Origin: an uncultured Clostridia bacterium
GTDB taxonomy: Bacteria; Bacillota; Clostridia; Christensenellales; Borkfalkiaceae
DNA: 38,986 nucleotides
Direction: 5' to 3'
Assembly: GCA_944375795.1 (NCBI GenBank)
Contig: CALWAU010000043.1
Span: 1 to 38,986 of the forward strand
Position 1 is the stretch's first letter. Each line of letters opens with the position of its first letter. This document shows positions 498 to 33,494 of this stretch, piece by piece. The notes below the pieces were generated by a model. It saw only the letters and a list, made by a program, of their open reading frames with translations, was not told the origin of the DNA and searched no databases. A program made the translations under genes and the position numbers.

Positions 498-1001
498 TTA
501 CCGCAGTTTGGCGCCGCAGTGGTTGCAAAAGGCGCTGTCGGAGGGAATGTCTTTTCCGCAGGCGGGACAGACGGAGCGGAGGGGCTTCCCGCAGCCCTTG
601 CAGAATTTGCTTCCCTTTTCGTTCCGTTCCCCGCAGGCGGGGCAAACGGCCGTTTCTTCCGCGTTTTGCGCTTCCCGTGCGGCGGAGACGACGTCGCCGA
701 CGGCGGGGCGCAATTCGCCGGCCGCTTCGTTGATGACGGGCACCGATTCGTTTTTGACGTATGTGTTTATTTCGCGGCGGAAGCCCATGGAGAGCAATCC
801 TCCGCCCACGGCGCACATCGGCAGTCCGAGAATGGCGCACCAGAACAAGCCGGGGGGACTTCCCGACCCGAAAGAGGAGAACAGGCTGATGAAGCCGATG
901 GCGGCGAAAACGATTCCGGCCGCGAGGACGATTCCTCCGGCAATTTTGAGAATTTTTTTCGTCTTTTCGTGTTCGGGAGAGCGGGTATTTTTGTCGGGCA
1001 T
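498..1001 (-). CDS. Membrane protein with two C-terminal zinc ribbons
   Basis: 167 residues. A charged N-terminus is followed by two predicted membrane helices (about 18-41 and 50-74), a linker, and two zinc-ribbon knuckle pairs with cysteines at 120/123/134/137 and 145/148/159/162 (CPACGERNEKGSKFCKGCG and CPACGKDIPSDSAFCNHCG). The layout is that of small 'zinc-ribbon domain' (DZR-like) membrane proteins common in Bacillota, whose function is unknown. The start is supported by AAAGGAGG seven bases before the ATG. It lies downstream of tRNA-Val on the same strand, and I see no promoter of its own between the tRNA terminator and the gene, so it may rely on read-through. Confidence 0.8.
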   Translation of the reverse strand: MPDKNTRSPEHEKTKKILKIAGGIVLAAGIVFAAIGFISLFSSFGSGSPPGLFWCAILGLPMCAVGGGLLSMGFRREINTYVKNESVPVINEAAGELRPAVGDVVSAAREAQNAEETAVCPACGERNEKGSKFCKGCGKPLRSVCPACGKDIPSDSAFCNHCGAKLR

Positions 1002-2697: not shown

Positions 2698-2713
2698 TGT
2701 TTCACGTGAAAAG
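2698..2713. promoter_or_regulatory. Candidate parS (ParB/Spo0J binding) site
   Basis: TGTTTCACGTGAAAAG matches the bacterial parS consensus TGTTTCACGTGAAACA at 14 of 16 positions and contains the perfect 12-base palindrome TTTCACGTGAAA. It lies between genes, just upstream of the ribosome site of the HD-domain gene. Known parS sites cluster around replication origins and load ParB. The identification rests on sequence match alone. Confidence 0.6.
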
Positions 2714-3245: not shown

Positions 3246-6200
3246 TCAGTTTTTCGCGTTGAGCGAAAAGAGATAGTAGAAAACCGCAAAGAGAATGATG
3301 TTGACGAGATAGATGACGGGCAAAATTACGTACGCGAGCAATTCGCGGGGCTGTTTGAGGTCCGCTTTGAGATAGACCGCCACCATGCTGACGACGATGA
3401 CGCCTATCACGAAGATGATGGAGGCGTTGAGGAGATATCCCGGGTGTTTTCCCCGCCTCGCCTGGGGGCGATAACCGCAGGCATAGAGGACGGTGCACAG
3501 CAGGAAGCCCGCAAGTCCCACGCCGCAGCCCACGGCCGGATACAGGCCGGAAACGTTCAGCCTGTCCTTGACGAAGAAGATGACCAGGCTTTCGGCCAGA
3601 ATGATGCAGAAAGTGATGAGGGCGGATTTGAAGAGGGTCAGCCCCTTGTTGAAGAACGCGGGGGCGGAGGCCGGCGCCTCTGCTTTATTCTTTCCCGCAT
3701 CCATGCTTCCCGCCGTCTTTAAGCGGATGCCGTCCGTTTGGGCGCGCCGGCGGAGGTCGTCGAGATCGATTCCCTCCTGTTTTGCGGCCGCCGGAGCGGT
3801 TGCCGGCGCGGGCGCCGTTCGCGGTTGGGCGGGGCGGCGGTATTCGTTCTCCAAAAATCCCGAAGGGGCGGGATAGGGAACGCCGTAGCCGGGATAGGGG
3901 GGCTCGGCGGAGCCGTTCGCGTATTCCGCGGCATAGCGGCGGGAATTGAATTCGCGGCGCGCCGCGTTCAATGCGTTTTCGCGGCTTTCGAGGTCGAGCT
4001 CCCGCTCTTTGAGTGCGGCGAGCTGTTTGTCGATGTCCGCATTCTTTTCCTGATATTCCGCCGCGGTTTCCAGCTTTTTCTTTTCCGTTTCCAGCTGCGC
4101 CTTTTCAAATTCCGTCTTTTGTTTTTCAAACGCTTCCTTGTCTTCGTCCAGCTTGGAACGCTGCGCTTCCAGGGTCTGCTTTTCTTCCTCGAACTTTTGC
4201 TTTTCCGTCCGGAAGGCGTTTTGTTCTTCGTTGAACCGCGCGAGTCCGTCGTTGAATTGCTTCACCTGTGCGTTGTAGGAGGCGAGCCTGTCCGCAAAAT
4301 CGAACTGCTGCGCCGCCAGCGTGTTTTTCTGGGTCATGAAATCGAGCTGCTGCTGATTGTAGATGGCCTGCCGTGCGGCGAGATCCTTTTGCTGCCGGCG
4401 GAAAGCTTCGATGTCGTTTTGCAGCTGTTCGCCGCTGCGCATCAACTCGTTCTGTCGGGCGGCGAGGTCGTCCCGTTGCCTCTGAACGTCCGCGGCGGAG
4501 GTGTCCGTCTGCGTCTGTCGGCTCTCTATCGCCCGTTGGTGCTCCTGCAGGGAATATTCCTTTTCGGTCAGCTCGTAGTTTTTCTTTTCCAGCTCGTTCT
4601 GCCTTTCCGCAAGCTCTCTCTGCGCCGTTTCGAGGGAGAGTTTTTCCGATTGCAGGCCTTCTTCCCGCTCCCGTATTTCGTTTTCTTTTTCGTCGAGGCC
4701 GCGGCGTTCGGAGAGGAGGGCTTCCCGCTGTCCGTCGAGATCGGTTTTGTCCCGTTCGTATGCGGCGCGTTCTTCTTCCCATTCGGCGCGCAGGCGTTCG
4801 TATTCTTCCCGTTCTTCGGCGAGGGCATTCTCGCGCTCCCGTATCGCCGTCTCCCGCGCTTCCAGCTCCGTGGCGGTGCTTTCGACGTTTTCGCCGGAGG
4901 AACGGACGGTCTCGTTCATTTCGTCGATGGAACGCTCGCGGGAGGCGAGTTCCTCCTCCTTTTCCGCAAGCCGCGCTTTGAGCGCTTCCAGCTCCGCCGT
5001 CCTTTCTTCCGTTTCCCGCTTTTCCGCTTCGAGCTGCCGCATTTGCTCGTCGATCTGCGCCTGGCGGGCGCTGAGTTCCACGGAGCGGTTATAGTGCTCG
5101 GCGGTCTTGTTTTCGAGGTCGTTTTTCAGAAGATTGAGCGCTTCTTCCTGGGAGGAGAGGGCGTTTCTGAGCGTGGCGATGTCAGATTTCTTTTCCTCCA
5201 GCTCGGCGCGCATTTCTTCCAGATCTTCGCTCTCCGCCTGCCGGTCCTGCATGGCGGTCTTTTCTTCTTCCAGCTGCGTTCTCTCCGCCTGAATGCGGGA
5301 GAGTATCTCATAATTTTCCGCCGTTTTCCTGTCGAGTTCTTCGCGGAGCCCGTCGAGCGCGCGCGTCTTTTCTTCCAGCTCGGCGCGCTGCGTTTCCGCT
5401 TCGGCTTCCGCTTTCTTCAGTTTTTCTTCCGCGTTTTCGATTTCCCGACGCTTTTCTTCGAGGGCTTCTTCCGCCCGTTGCAGGGCAGTCTCCCGTTCGG
5501 TCAGCTCCGATTGCTTCGTTTCGGAATCGGAAAGGGCCTCGGAGAGGGCGTCCTCCCGTTCCGCGAGCGCGGCGCGCGCTTCTTCCAGCTCCTTCTTCTT
5601 TTCGTCGAGTTCCGCTTGCAGCTCGTCCAGATTTTTCTGTTTTTCGTCCAGCTCGGATTGCAGGGAGAGGAGTTCGGACTGCTTGTCCGCCAGTTCTTCG
5701 GTGCGGGAGGATGTCTCCGCGCGCACCTCGTCGAGCTCGGTGATCTTTTCGTCGATCTCGATTTTCTGCGAATCGATTTTCCCTTTCAGGGAATCGATTT
5801 CCGCCCGCTGCCGCTCGAGCTCGTCCTTTGCTTCGCTTATCTCGCGCTGCTTTTCGTTCAGCTCAAATTCCTTTGCGTCGATTTCCGACTGCTTGTCGGC
5901 CAGCGCGCGTTCCTTTTCCTCCAATTCTTCTTTCTGCGTGCGGATCTTCTCTTTCAGCTCGTTGAAATCCGATTTCTGCGTGCTCAGAGAGGAGCTTTGC
6001 ACGGAGAGGAGGGAGCGTTCCCGCTGCAGTTCGTTGCGGAGATTGTTGAGGGCGTTTCTTTCTTCCTCCAAGGCCGATTCGCGCGCGGCGAGCGTCTTTT
6101 TGATATCGAGCAGCTCTTTCTGCTTTTCCGTGATAAAGGAAAAGTCGTAGTGGGCGTTGCCGTCCGAAATCAGGCTGTCGATGACCGTGCGGGAATATTC

Positions 6201-6563
6201 CCATTCGGACAAATCGCGCTGCGTCACCTCTTTTCCCTTTTCCGTGAGACGGAAATATTTCCGCCTGCCGCCGTTGGAAAAGTCCCCGTAATAGGATTCG
6301 ACGTATTTCAGGGATTCGAGGCGCTTTAAGGCGCTGTAAAGGGTGGGCTGTTTCAGGGTATACAGTCCGCCGCTCTTTTTCTCGATTTCGTTGATGATGT
6401 CGTAGCCGTACTTGTCCCCGTCGTACAGGCTCCGCAGAATAATGGTGTTGATGTGCCCGCGAATGAGATCGGAGCTTATCGTGGTGATGCCCTGTTCCTC
6501 CGCGCCGCCCGTCAGGGAGAAATCTTCCAGCTCGTCCACTCTCGTCTTTTCTTCCTGCGTCAT
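3246..6563 (-). CDS. PadR-type DNA-binding protein with giant coiled coil and C-terminal membrane anchor
   Basis: 1105 residues in three parts. (1) An acidic leader of about 30 residues, then a PadR winged helix at about 31-125: LIRGHINTIILRSLYDGDKY, GLYTLKQPTLYSALKRLES, GGRRKYFRLTEKGKE. (2) About 145-905: an almost uninterrupted Glu/Lys/Arg/Gln/Leu-rich coiled coil with repeated ELEEK/LDEKQ-like heptads. (3) A Pro/Tyr/Ala-rich linker, then four predicted membrane helices near 980-998, 1007-1031, 1044-1066 and 1076-1100, with a short cytosolic tail. Ordinary PadR proteins are 100-200 residues and soluble. The architecture implies a DNA-binding head held away from the membrane by a long rod, perhaps 110 nm if fully helical; that is inference. 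ATG follows AGGAGGG. A strong promoter and an operator-like dyad precede it. Confidence 0.88.
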   Translation of the reverse strand: MTQEEKTRVDELEDFSLTGGAEEQGITTISSDLIRGHINTIILRSLYDGDKYGYDIINEIEKKSGGLYTLKQPTLYSALKRLESLKYVESYYGDFSNGGRRKYFRLTEKGKEVTQRDLSEWEYSRTVIDSLISDGNAHYDFSFITEKQKELLDIKKTLAARESALEEERNALNNLRNELQRERSLLSVQSSSLSTQKSDFNELKEKIRTQKEELEEKERALADKQSEIDAKEFELNEKQREISEAKDELERQRAEIDSLKGKIDSQKIEIDEKITELDEVRAETSSRTEELADKQSELLSLQSELDEKQKNLDELQAELDEKKKELEEARAALAEREDALSEALSDSETKQSELTERETALQRAEEALEEKRREIENAEEKLKKAEAEAETQRAELEEKTRALDGLREELDRKTAENYEILSRIQAERTQLEEEKTAMQDRQAESEDLEEMRAELEEKKSDIATLRNALSSQEEALNLLKNDLENKTAEHYNRSVELSARQAQIDEQMRQLEAEKRETEERTAELEALKARLAEKEEELASRERSIDEMNETVRSSGENVESTATELEARETAIRERENALAEEREEYERLRAEWEEERAAYERDKTDLDGQREALLSERRGLDEKENEIREREEGLQSEKLSLETAQRELAERQNELEKKNYELTEKEYSLQEHQRAIESRQTQTDTSAADVQRQRDDLAARQNELMRSGEQLQNDIEAFRRQQKDLAARQAIYNQQQLDFMTQKNTLAAQQFDFADRLASYNAQVKQFNDGLARFNEEQNAFRTEKQKFEEEKQTLEAQRSKLDEDKEAFEKQKTEFEKAQLETEKKKLETAAEYQEKNADIDKQLAALKERELDLESRENALNAARREFNSRRYAAEYANGSAEPPYPGYGVPYPAPSGFLENEYRRPAQPRTAPAPATAPAAAKQEGIDLDDLRRRAQTDGIRLKTAGSMDAGKNKAEAPASAPAFFNKGLTLFKSALITFCIILAESLVIFFVKDRLNVSGLYPAVGCGVGLAGFLLCTVLYACGYRPQARRGKHPGYLLNASIIFVIGVIVVSMVAVYLKADLKQPRELLAYVILPVIYLVNIILFAVFYYLFSLNAKN

Positions 6564-6583: not shown

Positions 6584-6596
6584 TTTGTCTGACATA
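6584..6596. promoter_or_regulatory. Operator-like dyad in the rod-gene leader
   Basis: TTTGTC-T-GACATA is one base from the perfect dyad TATGTC-N-GACATA. It lies about 40 bases downstream of the predicted transcription start and 20 bases before the ATG. The same dyad occurs twice before the gene at 32244. PadR proteins commonly autoregulate, so this protein is a candidate to bind here. Confidence 0.45.
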
Positions 6597-6640
6597 GTAT
6601 AGGTTGTCTGCGAGAATACAATAAATATCTTATATATAGT

Positions 6641-6669
6641 ATTATACAACAAATAATTCCATAAGTCAA
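6641..6669 (-). promoter_or_regulatory. Sigma-A promoter of the rod-protein gene
   Basis: On the minus strand, TTGACT (6669-6664) and TATAAT (6646-6641) have a 17-base spacer. The leader of about 70 bases is AT-rich and contains the dyad at 6584-6596. Confidence 0.85.
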
Positions 6670-6806: not shown

Positions 6807-7553
6807 ATGAATGTTTACGAACATATCAGAGAGTTTGACGTCAGGTATTGCGACGTCGATTTCAAGGACGAACTCAAGCCTTCCGCGATGCTCGCGTATT
6901 TTGAAGAAGCGGCCTGTTCGAGCGCGGACGAGCTCGGCTTCGGCTACGCCCGCCTCAAACCGATGGGGTTTACCTTCATGCTCACCAATATCCGCTGCCG
7001 CCTGTATCGGCCCGTTCTGCTCGGCGCCCGCGTGACCGTGAAAACCTGGCCGACGCCGCCCTCGTATGTGGTGTTCGGGAGAGAATACAAGATTTTGTCG
7101 GAAGGCGGGGAATGCCTGGCGGACGCCACCTCCCGTTGGTGCGTCGTCGATCTGAAGAACGGAAAGGTGCAGCCCTCCAAAGTGTTTCCGGAGCAGGATT
7201 ACGCTTCTTACAATCGCGCGCGGGCGCTGGACTGCAACCGCTGGAAATTTCCCGCGTATCCCGCGGACGAGGGGGAGCCTCGCTTTTCCATGACCGTCGC
7301 CAATTCGGAGTACGACCACAACATGCACGTCAACAACACCCGCTATGCGGACTACTGTTTCAACTGCTTCTCTTTGAAGGAGCTCGCCGCCCGTTCCCTG
7401 AAAGAATTTTCGCTCGGCTATCTCCGGCAGTGCCGGGAGGGGGACGGCCTCCGATTCGTGCGCAGAGAGGCGGAGGAAGGCGTCTTTCAGGTCGAGGGCT
7501 TCAACGAAGCGGGCGAAAACGTCGTGCGGTCGGAGATCCGCTTCGGGAACTGA
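6807..7553 (+). CDS. Acyl-ACP thioesterase (FatA/FatB-like family)
   Basis: 248 residues forming two hot-dog folds (about 1-125 and 155-248). The first begins with FDVRYCDVDFKDELKPSAML; the second carries YDHNMHVNNTRYADY (169-183), the family active-site region with the conserved Asn and His. Such enzymes hydrolyse acyl-ACP to free fatty acids in the cytoplasm and occur widely in Clostridia as stand-alone genes. The ATG at 6807 is chosen because family members start at this point and the -10 box ends only six bases before it, so upstream in-frame codons would not be transcribed. There is no Shine-Dalgarno sequence in the predicted mRNA. The gene is divergent from the rod-protein gene and appears to be monocistronic. 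Confidence 0.88.
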   Translation: MNVYEHIREFDVRYCDVDFKDELKPSAMLAYFEEAACSSADELGFGYARLKPMGFTFMLTNIRCRLYRPVLLGARVTVKTWPTPPSYVVFGREYKILSEGGECLADATSRWCVVDLKNGKVQPSKVFPEQDYASYNRARALDCNRWKFPAYPADEGEPRFSMTVANSEYDHNMHVNNTRYADYCFNCFSLKELAARSLKEFSLGYLRQCREGDGLRFVRREAEEGVFQVEGFNEAGENVVRSEIRFGN

Positions 7554-12262: not shown

Positions 12263-13435
12263 ATGAATTTCGAGCAAATCAAAGAGAGTGACGCGGCGCA
12301 TATCGCGCCGACATACAATCGTTTTTCGGTCGCGTTGGAGAGCGGCGAGGGCGCCACGCTGACCGATACGGCGGGAAAGAAATACATCGATTTTACGAGC
12401 GGCATCGGCGTAAATATTTTCGGCGTCAACGACGGGCAATGGAAAAGCGCCGTCATCGCGCAGCTGAATAAGGTACAGCATACCTGCAATTTGTATTATA
12501 CCGAGCCGCAGACCCGCCTTGCGGCGCTCCTGTGCGAGAAGTCGGGGGCGAAAAAGGTCTTTTTCGGCAACTCGGGCGCGGAGGCCAACGAATGCGCCAT
12601 CAAAGCGGCGAGAAAATATTCTTTCCGGAAATACGGGGAGGGTCGGTACGAAATCGTCACCCTCGTAAACGGCTTTCACGGGCGCACGCTCGCGACGCTG
12701 GCCGCGACCGGACAGGAGGAATTTCATAAATATTTCGGGCCTTTTCCCGGCGGTTTCGTCTATGCCGAGCCCGAATTTGCGGCCGTGAAGGAAAAGATCT
12801 CCGAAAAAACCTGCGCCGTCATGATGGAGCTTATTCAGGGCGAGAGCGGCGTACACGTGCTCGACGAGAACTTTGTCAGACAGATTACCGAATATTGCCG
12901 GGCGAAAGATATCCTTGTCATCGTCGATGAAGTGCAGTCGGGAAACGGCAGAACGGGTTACATGTATTCCTATCAGGGGTATGGTATTATTCCTGACATA
13001 GCAACGACGGCGAAGGGGCTGGGGGGCGGTTTGCCGATCGGTGCCTGCCTGTTGTTTGAAAAGACGGCGGACGCGTTTTCCTGCGGGGACCACGGCTCCA
13101 CGTTCGGCGGAAATCCCGTCGTCTGCGCGGGCGCCGTAAGCATCGTCGAAAGGCTGACGGACGACCTCTTTCTCGAGGTGCGCGCCAAGGGCGATTACCT
13201 GAAAACTTTTCTCTCCAAGATAAAGGGAGTGGAAGAAGTGACGGGAAAGGGGCTGATGATCGGGCTAAAACTGCATCCGGGCGTTTCGGTGCGCGCGGCG
13301 GCGGAGAAGTGTCTCGAAAAGGGACTGATGGTGCTGACGGCGCACGACCGGCTGCGCCTGCTCCCGCCCCTGACCATCACAAAGACGGAAATGAACGAAG
13401 GACTGAAAATATTGAACGAGGTATTGGCGGAATGA
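12263..13435 (+). CDS. argD: Acetylornithine aminotransferase
   Basis: 390 residues, a class III PLP aminotransferase. It makes N-acetylornithine from the semialdehyde using glutamate. The PLP lysine is Lys251 in TTAKGLGGGLPIGA; Asp222 in IVDEVQSGNGRTG contacts the cofactor, and GNSGAEANECAIKAARK (102-118) is the phosphate-binding stretch. ATG 12263 gives the family N-terminus. The ribosome site is odd: GGAGA lies in the loop of a small CGCCCG/CGGGCG hairpin about 14 bases upstream. The last four bases overlap the argF start (ATGA), which suggests translational coupling. Confidence 0.96.
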   Translation: MNFEQIKESDAAHIAPTYNRFSVALESGEGATLTDTAGKKYIDFTSGIGVNIFGVNDGQWKSAVIAQLNKVQHTCNLYYTEPQTRLAALLCEKSGAKKVFFGNSGAEANECAIKAARKYSFRKYGEGRYEIVTLVNGFHGRTLATLAATGQEEFHKYFGPFPGGFVYAEPEFAAVKEKISEKTCAVMMELIQGESGVHVLDENFVRQITEYCRAKDILVIVDEVQSGNGRTGYMYSYQGYGIIPDIATTAKGLGGGLPIGACLLFEKTADAFSCGDHGSTFGGNPVVCAGAVSIVERLTDDLFLEVRAKGDYLKTFLSKIKGVEEVTGKGLMIGLKLHPGVSVRAAAEKCLEKGLMVLTAHDRLRLLPPLTITKTEMNEGLKILNEVLAE

Positions 13436-32190: not shown

Positions 32191-32223
32191 TATGTCAGGC
32201 ATAATTTATATGTCTGACATAAT
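32191..32223. promoter_or_regulatory. Tandem operator-like dyads upstream of the lyase-family gene
   Basis: TATGTCAGGCATAAT (32191-32205) and TATGTCTGACATAAT (32209-32223) are 15-base direct repeats 18 bases apart. Each centres on the dyad TATGTC-N-GACATA, the second perfect and the first with one mismatch. The spacing, near two helical turns, suits two repressor dimers. I see no clear -35/-10 pair, though CATAAT boxes lie inside the repeats. The same dyad lies before the PadR rod gene. Confidence 0.5.
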
Positions 32224-32243
32224 ACTGAAAAGGATAAAATGAT

Positions 32244-33494
32244 ATGGTCATGACAGCGGACAATCTGATAGCGGAGAGCGAACGGTCGCTTGCGGCGCGT
32301 TTTCGCAGGGCGGAAGAGATCGCCGAATATAATCAGGAAAAGGTATTGAAGGCATTTCAGGCGTGCCGGGTGGCCCTCCGGCATTTCAACCCGTCGACGG
32401 GTTACGGTTACGGCGACGAAGGAAGATTTACGTTAGGCGAAGTATTTGCTTTGTCGATGGGGGCGGAGGCGGGTATCGTTTCTCCCGCGATGCTTTCGGG
32501 GACGCACGCTTTAAGCGTGGCGCTTTTCGGGCTGCTCCGGCCGGGGGACAAAGTACTTTCCCTGTCCGGAATACCGTACGATACTTTGCGCGGCGTCATT
32601 TTCGGGGAGGGAAACGGTTCCCTGAAAGATTTCGGGATTTCCTTCGAGTGCCTCGCGCTCACCGGAGAGGGAAAATTTGACATGGCGGGCGCGGAAGAGC
32701 GGATAAAGGCGCTCGGGAGCGGGCTGAAAATGATTTATATCCAGCGTTCCCGCGGGTACGAGCTGCGCGACGCGTTCACCGTGTCCGAAATCGGGGAGGC
32801 CTGCGCCAAAGTGCGCGCGCTCGGTTTTGAGGGGTGCATCTTCGTGGACAACTGTTACGGGGAATTCGTCGAGAAAGAGGAGCCCTGTGACGTCGGCGCG
32901 GACGTCGCGGTCGGCTCTCTCATCAAAAATCCGGGCGGGGGATTGGCGCCGACGGGCGGTTACGTCGTCGGCGGGAAGGAGTATGTCGAGCTGATCGGAA
33001 AGCGGCTCACCGCGCCTTCCGTGGGCAACGAGGTGGGTTCGTACGCCTACGGATACCGTCCCTTTTATCAGGGGCTGTTTCTGGCGCCGCACGTGGTCGG
33101 CCAGGCAATCAAGGGCAGCCTTCTCATCGGCAGGTGCATGCAATCGCTCGGCTATGAAAATTTCCCTTCTCTCGACAAAACGCCCGCCGATATTACCCGC
33201 GCCATTCGTTTCGATACCGCGGAGCAGCTGTGCGCCTTTATCCGCTCGGTACAGGAGGCGTCTCCCGTGGACAGTTACGTCACCCCCGAGCCCTGGGATA
33301 TGCCGGGTTACGACAGCAAGGTCATCATGGCGGCAGGATGTTTCGTGGACGGCGCCTCCATCGAACTTTCGGCGGACGCCCCGGTCAAGCCGCCGTATAC
33401 CGCCTATTTCCAGGGCGGATTGACGTACGAGCATTGCAAATACGCCCTGAAAAAGATTTTGGAAAAGCTGCTGCCCGTCGAAGGGGCAAAATAA
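32244..33494 (+). CDS. Methionine gamma-lyase family PLP protein (YnbB / 'aluminium resistance' family)
   Basis: 416 residues, fold-type I PLP enzyme. The predicted PLP lysine is Lys228 in VGSLIKNPGGGLAPTGGY; SGTHALSVALFGLLRPGD and YIQRSRGYELR are typical of this family, which was named after a resistance phenotype and whose substrate is not well known. The ATG at 32244 follows AAAGGAT at a good distance; ATG 32250 is an in-frame alternative. In many Bacillota it sits after mutS-mutL-miaA(-hfq), as here. The 59-base gap from miaA holds two operator-like dyads, so it is probably controlled on its own. Confidence 0.9.
   Translation: MVMTADNLIAESERSLAARFRRAEEIAEYNQEKVLKAFQACRVALRHFNPSTGYGYGDEGRFTLGEVFALSMGAEAGIVSPAMLSGTHALSVALFGLLRPGDKVLSLSGIPYDTLRGVIFGEGNGSLKDFGISFECLALTGEGKFDMAGAEERIKALGSGLKMIYIQRSRGYELRDAFTVSEIGEACAKVRALGFEGCIFVDNCYGEFVEKEEPCDVGADVAVGSLIKNPGGGLAPTGGYVVGGKEYVELIGKRLTAPSVGNEVGSYAYGYRPFYQGLFLAPHVVGQAIKGSLLIGRCMQSLGYENFPSLDKTPADITRAIRFDTAEQLCAFIRSVQEASPVDSYVTPEPWDMPGYDSKVIMAAGCFVDGASIELSADAPVKPPYTAYFQGGLTYEHCKYALKKILEKLLPVEGAK

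Follow-up and report, generated by a model that had tools for sequence, protein, structure and literature searches.

A protein that begins with a PadR DNA-binding domain, continues in a very long coiled coil and ends in hydrophobic helices raises the question of what such a build is for, as the PadR family is known for small soluble repressors. We analyzed the gene for this protein in a window of 38,986 nucleotides from an uncultured Clostridia bacterium. The window corresponds to contig C43 in a draft assembly of 142 contigs (2.1 Mb); the genomes compared with it were likewise all drafts and mostly metagenome-assembled. An earlier note on the window had described a PadR head, a giant rod and a four-helix membrane anchor, and had suggested that the protein tethers DNA to the membrane or senses the state of the envelope. 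As the reading frame is intact, the head is of the PadR type, the rod keeps one register and the tail has four helices, this three-part description was right. The parts of the 1105-residue protein follow each other in the order PadR head, coiled-coil rod, proline-rich linker and four-helix membrane tail (Table 1). A frameshift or assembly join between head and rod, which would have made the build an artifact, was ruled out because the architecture is conserved within the genus: the protein was matched in 31 of 37 congeneric genomes, many of these incomplete.

Table 1. Features of the window around the PadR-tail gene (positions in the window; aa, residues of the protein)
Feature	Position	Strand	Basis or remark
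parS-like palindrome TGTTTCACGTGAAAAG	2698-2713	.	2 mismatches; 533 bp beyond the gene's 3' end
Whole gene	3246-6563	-	single uninterrupted ATG ORF, 1105 aa
Four transmembrane helices, aa 973-1101, N-in/C-in	3261-3647	-	prediction, model, order-wide homology
Pro/Tyr/Gly-rich linker, aa 886-955	3699-3908	-	proline positions
Conserved pre-membrane motif DDLRRRAQTDGIRLKTAG	3711-3770	-	alignment; short helix in model
Coiled-coil rod without proline, aa 141-885, heptads in nearly one register	3909-6143	-	periodicity and register analysis
PadR winged-helix head, aa 29-135	6159-6479	-	Pfam, PDB relatives, fold match
Candidate operator TTTGTCTGACATAGTATAGGTTGTCTGC	6585-6611	.	between -10 box and start codon; motif within 3 mismatches
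Sigma-70-type promoter TTGACT-17-TATAAT	6641-6669	-	strong; ahead of the gene, similar form across the genus
Acyl-ACP thioesterase, divergent neighbor sharing the intergenic region of the gene	6807-7553	+	PF01643, E 4e-14
Further motif copy	12985-13000	.	up to 2 mismatches; 0 in reversed control of the window
Tandem motif copies TATGTCAGGCATAATTTATATGTCTGACATAATACT	32191-32226	.	between miaA and methionine gamma-lyase family gene

The head is a true PadR domain by profile, by sequence relatives and by predicted fold. A profile search, run to check the PadR identity proposed earlier for aa 31-125, matched aa 42-115 to Pfam PF03551 (PadR) with an E value of 2.1e-16 and 60.1 bits against a curated cut-off of 27. 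The nearest solved relative was 9qbc (E 2e-27 over aa 29-129), and the head was 37-46% identical to the best solved chains among LmrR and the other soluble PadR regulators. The AlphaFold2 model of the head matched LmrR/PadR chains with Z scores of 13-14, and a predicted helix at aa 108-133 aligned with the C-terminal dimerisation helix of PadR chains.

A coiled coil of about 745 residues, which keeps to essentially one register, follows the head. Proline is absent from aa 74-887 (814 residues), and the 3.5-residue periodicity of the rod was pronounced (z = 10.1 compared to shuffles). When a single register was applied to aa 141-885, the best heptad pair (a/d) was 57% hydrophobic compared to 31% overall, with a windowed z of 7.8. 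A fully helical rod would measure about 110 nm by arithmetic (0.1485 nm per residue). Membership in the SMC/Rad50 group was rejected: the NCBIfam matches of the rod stay far under the curated cut-offs and reflect a similarity shared by coiled coils in general, the SMC match was confined to the rod (82 bits, cut-off 567), and ABC ATPase head domains are absent from the ends of the coiled coil, which are occupied by the PadR domain and the membrane helices. The motif preceding the membrane helices has the consensus RAQ.(D/E)GI.LNTAG in the genus and is KGYNLKPY-like in other families. The giant rod of the earlier note was upheld as a heptad rod; however, it is limited to this genus, and the linker varies across the order. 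Periodicity was significant (z 3-10) in complete proteins of the genus and low in nearly all other lineages, and the linkers outside the genus are disordered or form long charged helices. Long charged-helix linkers (EEEARRQALEDEE-like) in which heptads were not clear were seen at L079, L080, L085, L086, L090 and L174; they constitute a second way of building a long spacer. A linker motif, [NDE]Y[KR]xxhxxh, was present in 60 of 71 proteins outside the genus, usually shortly before the tail (0.9 expected from shuffles), and in 0 of 39 proteins of the window's genus. It is conserved within the otherwise variable linkers of L033-L039, L078-L097 and L129-L177 and may be a docking peptide.

The membrane-helix prediction supported the proposed anchor, with hydrophobic helices at aa 980-998, 1004-1022, 1047-1065 and 1076-1094 in an N-in/C-in arrangement. 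AlphaFold2 modeled the tail as four long helices (mean pLDDT 87.6), and in all 97 four-helix homologues the positive-inside count of Lys and Arg assigned both termini to the cytosol. The loops between the membrane helices are short, with averages of about 9-11 residues on the outer and 20 on the inner side. They leave no classical external sensor domain, and the suggestion that the protein senses the envelope state is weakened accordingly. The best Foldseek match of the tail reached only E = 1 and the highest VIA-align Z was 7.3, for unrelated helical bundles; therefore, we claim no fold for it. Kinship with DUF1129/Yip1 was discarded, as the matches were sub-threshold only (DUF1129 in 9 of 37 tails).

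The protein occurs in relatives of Candidatus Borkfalkia/Scatosoma (Christensenellales), close to which named relatives also place the organism of the window, and in much of the order. Of the 297 genomes of the order, 146 were matched by a tail-only profile, and 145 of these had a single match; the matches fell mostly within open frames of 370-1000 aa. The tail accompanied each of the 80 named head matches, save those cut by contig ends and one apparent frameshift, and a PadR head was found in 18 of 20 further loci sampled across the order. Homologues lacking head or anchor had been named earlier as a point against the proposed build. Head and tail recur order-wide, but two loci that kept the four-helix tail had no recognizable head (eroded in L082, absent from L092). 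Because of this recurrence, we conclude that the ancestral plan in the order is a PadR head, a variable linker and a four-helix tail, with the rod confined to one genus. Single-copy occurrence combined with order-wide conservation is more in keeping with a core cell function than with a niche regulator. No description of a PadR head fused to a membrane tail was found in the literature searched, which did not cover every journal.

The neighboring genes are housekeeping genes that depend on the family, and no operon partner explaining the function was found among them. The divergent thioesterase is the conserved neighbor in Borkfalkiaceae (about 74 of the 113 loci compared), and in other families the PadR-tail gene is adjoined in 16 of 21 loci by a gene that, from our own reading of its sequence, we take to be RNase HI-like. 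As no partner is constant, evidence on the function has to come from the protein itself and from its DNA sites. Upstream regions of the genus (e.g., L050, L053 and L063) contain another palindrome, TACTTTACGTAAAGTA-like, at a position overlapping the -10 box. Near a tRNA-Val gene, at 498-1001 (minus strand), the window also encodes a small protein that has hydrophobic stretches and a double zinc ribbon.

Upstream of the gene, a palindromic motif, TATGTCWGACATARTACT, was present in 70 of 79 Borkfalkiaceae loci (25/29 in the genus and 45/50 in other Borkfalkiaceae within 3 mismatches; 0 in shuffles), and other families contributed two or three further loci (L033, L088 and partly L083). Its core is TATGTCWGACATA, and pairs 18 bp apart are frequent in the genus. 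The genome of the window contained 37 strand matches compared to 2 in the reversed control, and another genome (G351) contained 119 compared to 1. The tandem copies in the window end about 17 bp ahead of a start codon at 32244; the motif in this intergenic region is common to several genera and was also found in G034, and the identity of miaA was confirmed. The genes beside other recurrent sites presumably include purB-, dnaB- and argR-like ones, according to our reading of their sequences. On the basis of the constant place of the motif before the gene, we infer that the PadR-tail protein binds it. The candidate site reads ATGT-N3-ACAT, which are the half-sites of LmrR operators, but with a spacer of 3 instead of 8-10 (PMC3506622). 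In six families (f3, f6, f10, f14, f16 and f24) the protein is present with at most one motif match per genome, and G315 and G347 each contain one or two copies of the motif, with all of their PadR proteins being short. The recognition helices seem alike in lineages with and without the motif.

One genome of the genus, G034, was covered in long stretches totaling 774 kb. Its GC skew and its gene direction both turn from minus to plus near 345 kb on contig C2, with rpmH at 334 kb (origin side), and from plus to minus at 40 kb on C10 (terminus); a dif site that would confirm the terminus was searched for and not found. All 15 sites lie in the first 140 kb of C10, within about 100 kb of the terminus. 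No site was found in 514 kb elsewhere (374 kb of C2 and 140 kb of C1), with 1-2 control matches per contig. The chance of all ten site clusters falling within that 140 kb is about 4e-8 for this interval, which was picked post hoc. Regional clustering was also seen in G140, where every match lies on three contigs (about 317 of 1800 kb) that include the gene's own, and in G067, with 20 of 21 matches on the gene's contig; the clustering at a terminus refers to G034 as the one genome with both origin and terminus placed. In G351, 49 sites were located in 367 kb, 38 intergenic and 11 inside genes. These showed a strand bias opposite to the prevailing gene direction. In the genome as a whole, sites spread over at least seven large contigs, a distribution that is regional but wider than in G034. 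For their length, convergent gaps were favored over divergent gaps by the intergenic sites (p = 0.018). Convergent gaps are free of promoters, and this preference makes the G351 sites unlike operators. The dispersed element of this genome, GATCTATGTCACGCATAGTACTATGCAAAACG, with its 49 copies in 367 kb on contigs C7, C3 and C9 (L302-L321), is mostly intergenic and often lies just past gene ends and on the strand that opposes the main gene direction.

The parS-like neighbor mentioned in the earlier note was substantiated, with about 0.09 such sites expected by chance in the window (up to 3 mismatches). Of 39 loci of the genus, 14 have a parS-like site no more than 1.2 kb from the gene, in most cases 47-59 bp past the gene end; none of the loci outside the genus had one (up to 2 mismatches). 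The sole parS-like site in 260 kb of G034 contig C10 adjoins the gene. ParB of the genus matched only the later part of the family model, with 42-83 bits in 35 of 37 genomes, compared to mostly 157-208 bits in other families of the order. In the ParB proteins of the genus that were read, the CTP-binding motif GERRxRA is changed to GAADLSA or similar (wrong-frame rows L340 and L359 were disregarded in one alignment). ParB homologues without GERRxRA and box I that kept the HTH and the C-terminal domain were seen at L341:1351-2190 (contig C39 of the window's own genome), L340, L342 and L367. The ParB gene of the window's genome follows an ftsH-like gene. The coincidence of rod, parS-like neighbor and degenerate ParB in one genus suggests a link between them; as it represents one evolutionary event, it is suggestive and not proof.

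We hypothesize, as a tentative leading reading, that the protein is an integral-membrane protein that holds chromosomal DNA of the terminus region near the membrane. The N-terminal PadR dimer would bind palindromic sites repeated around the replication terminus, the coiled coil would dimerise the protein and span the cytoplasm, and the four-helix tail would anchor it to the membrane, perhaps at the site of division. The site in its own promoter region would let the protein limit its own production. The tethering idea of the earlier note is thereby retained with its three parts confirmed, whereas we infer that the head binds the motif, that binding serves tethering rather than regulation, and the place of the protein in the membrane. 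Three findings go beyond that note: the upstream palindrome, the gathering of its copies near the terminus of one genome, and a degenerate ParB in the genus. A tether is supported by the confirmed head, rod and tail with their single-copy occurrence across much of the order, by the regional clustering in G034, G140 and G067 and the G351 sites inside genes and convergent gaps, and by the upstream motif with its dispersed genome copies and LmrR-type half-sites. However, the spacer differs from that of LmrR, some sites occupy plausible operator positions (in the gene's own promoter and just before the methionine gamma-lyase family gene), the G351 sites extend over many contigs, and six protein-bearing families are nearly without the motif. 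The length of the rod also far exceeds the apparent need, and relatives manage with disordered linkers.

The main rival, which has a serious if slightly smaller chance of being correct, is a membrane-bound, autoregulated one-component transcription factor. Its tail would sense the membrane state or a lipid and signal along the linker to the PadR head, with the rod as a spacer or mechanical relay, and the head would repress or activate its own gene, the thioesterase and other motif-bearing genes. Well-studied PadR repressors often control their own genes, and the motif precedes the gene in nearly all Borkfalkiaceae. The divergent fatty-acid thioesterase, the miaA/methionine gamma-lyase site conserved across genera and the proposed signaling theme of PadR heads paired with separate membrane proteins (HAAS-PadR, PMC11237479) point in the same direction. 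In contrast, the genes at the recurrent sites are unrelated housekeeping genes, a good share of the sites lie in genes or convergent gaps, sites cluster regionally in three genomes, and an extracytoplasmic sensor domain is absent. Tether and membrane-bound transcription factor could both hold. It is unlikely that the motif belongs to another DNA-binding protein for which the PadR-tail gene is one target, the PadR-tail protein having a different site of its own. Several lineages have the protein and lack the motif, the spacer is unlike that of LmrR, and the recognition helices look much the same whether or not the motif is present; but the motif stands upstream of the gene in 70 of 79 loci even where the genome has about 20 copies. 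Moreover, g27 and g128, which bear the motif and were missed by the tail profile, do have full-length PadR proteins of 405-430 aa, as detected by the head search. We consider it very improbable that the protein is a replication fork trap, in which a PadR-like head at terminus sites blocks forks as RTP does, with membrane attachment added. The PadR dimer topology is very similar to that of RTP (PMC3506622) and the sites flank the terminus in G034, but the core sites there are near-palindromic with mixed orientations on each side of the terminus, the number of sites in G351 is far above what a fork trap needs, and the RTP profile matches were insignificant (E 0.06-0.09 for two homologues). To return to the leading reading, a bolder form of the tether, in which one polypeptide replaces the chain of MatP, ZapB and membrane at the terminus and, in this genus, took on some of the work of ParB, appears doubtful; it was prompted by the loss of the CTP motif in the same genus as the rod and the gene-adjacent parS-like sites.

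How the terminus is placed and held without MatP and ZapB is an open question for most phyla, and an order-wide single-copy membrane protein with a testable dispersed palindrome offers a concrete candidate in uncultured gut Clostridia. The protein also extends PadR from small soluble repressors to integral-membrane proteins, and the occurrence of one build with a coiled-coil, charged-helix or disordered linker amounts to a natural experiment on linker function.

Among known systems, the build resembles RocS of Streptococcus pneumoniae and RacA in its N-terminal DNA-binding winged helix, middle coiled coil and C-terminal envelope attachment. RocS and RacA link chromosome and envelope, the C-terminus of RocS attaching to the membrane and that of RacA to the pole (PMC11500499, PMC13042908). 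However, their heads are of the MerR type and not PadR, the short amphipathic anchor of RocS contrasts with a set of four transmembrane helices here, their coiled coil is many times shorter than the rod, and no sequence relation to them was found. MatP-matS with ZapB is similar in its 13-bp sites around the terminus and a coiled coil that links terminus DNA towards the division machinery (PMC7188993, PMC3330122). G034 has 15 sites near its terminus and 0 in 514 kb elsewhere, and the spread in G351 is regional but wider. In enteric bacteria the chain is divided among separate proteins (MatP, ZapB and the membrane link), whereas here one polypeptide with a PadR head is present and a link to the divisome is hypothetical; Pfam and NCBIfam scans of the protein gave PadR and no MatP family. 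The HAAS-PadR dyads of Firmicutes also have a PadR head working with a membrane partner (PMC11237479), but they consist of two separate proteins with the HAAS domain between them instead of one fused protein, and no HAAS/DUF1700 match was obtained in the protein, the tails or the neighboring genes in the window. LmrR and the other soluble PadR regulators share the fold and sequence of the head but are small and have neither rod nor membrane tail. RTP of Bacillus subtilis resembles the protein in its PadR-like dimer topology and terminus sites; it is a small soluble protein that arrests forks in a polar manner and has no membrane part. The protein lies outside the MatP, ZapB and RocS families, although a tether built from it would work similarly.
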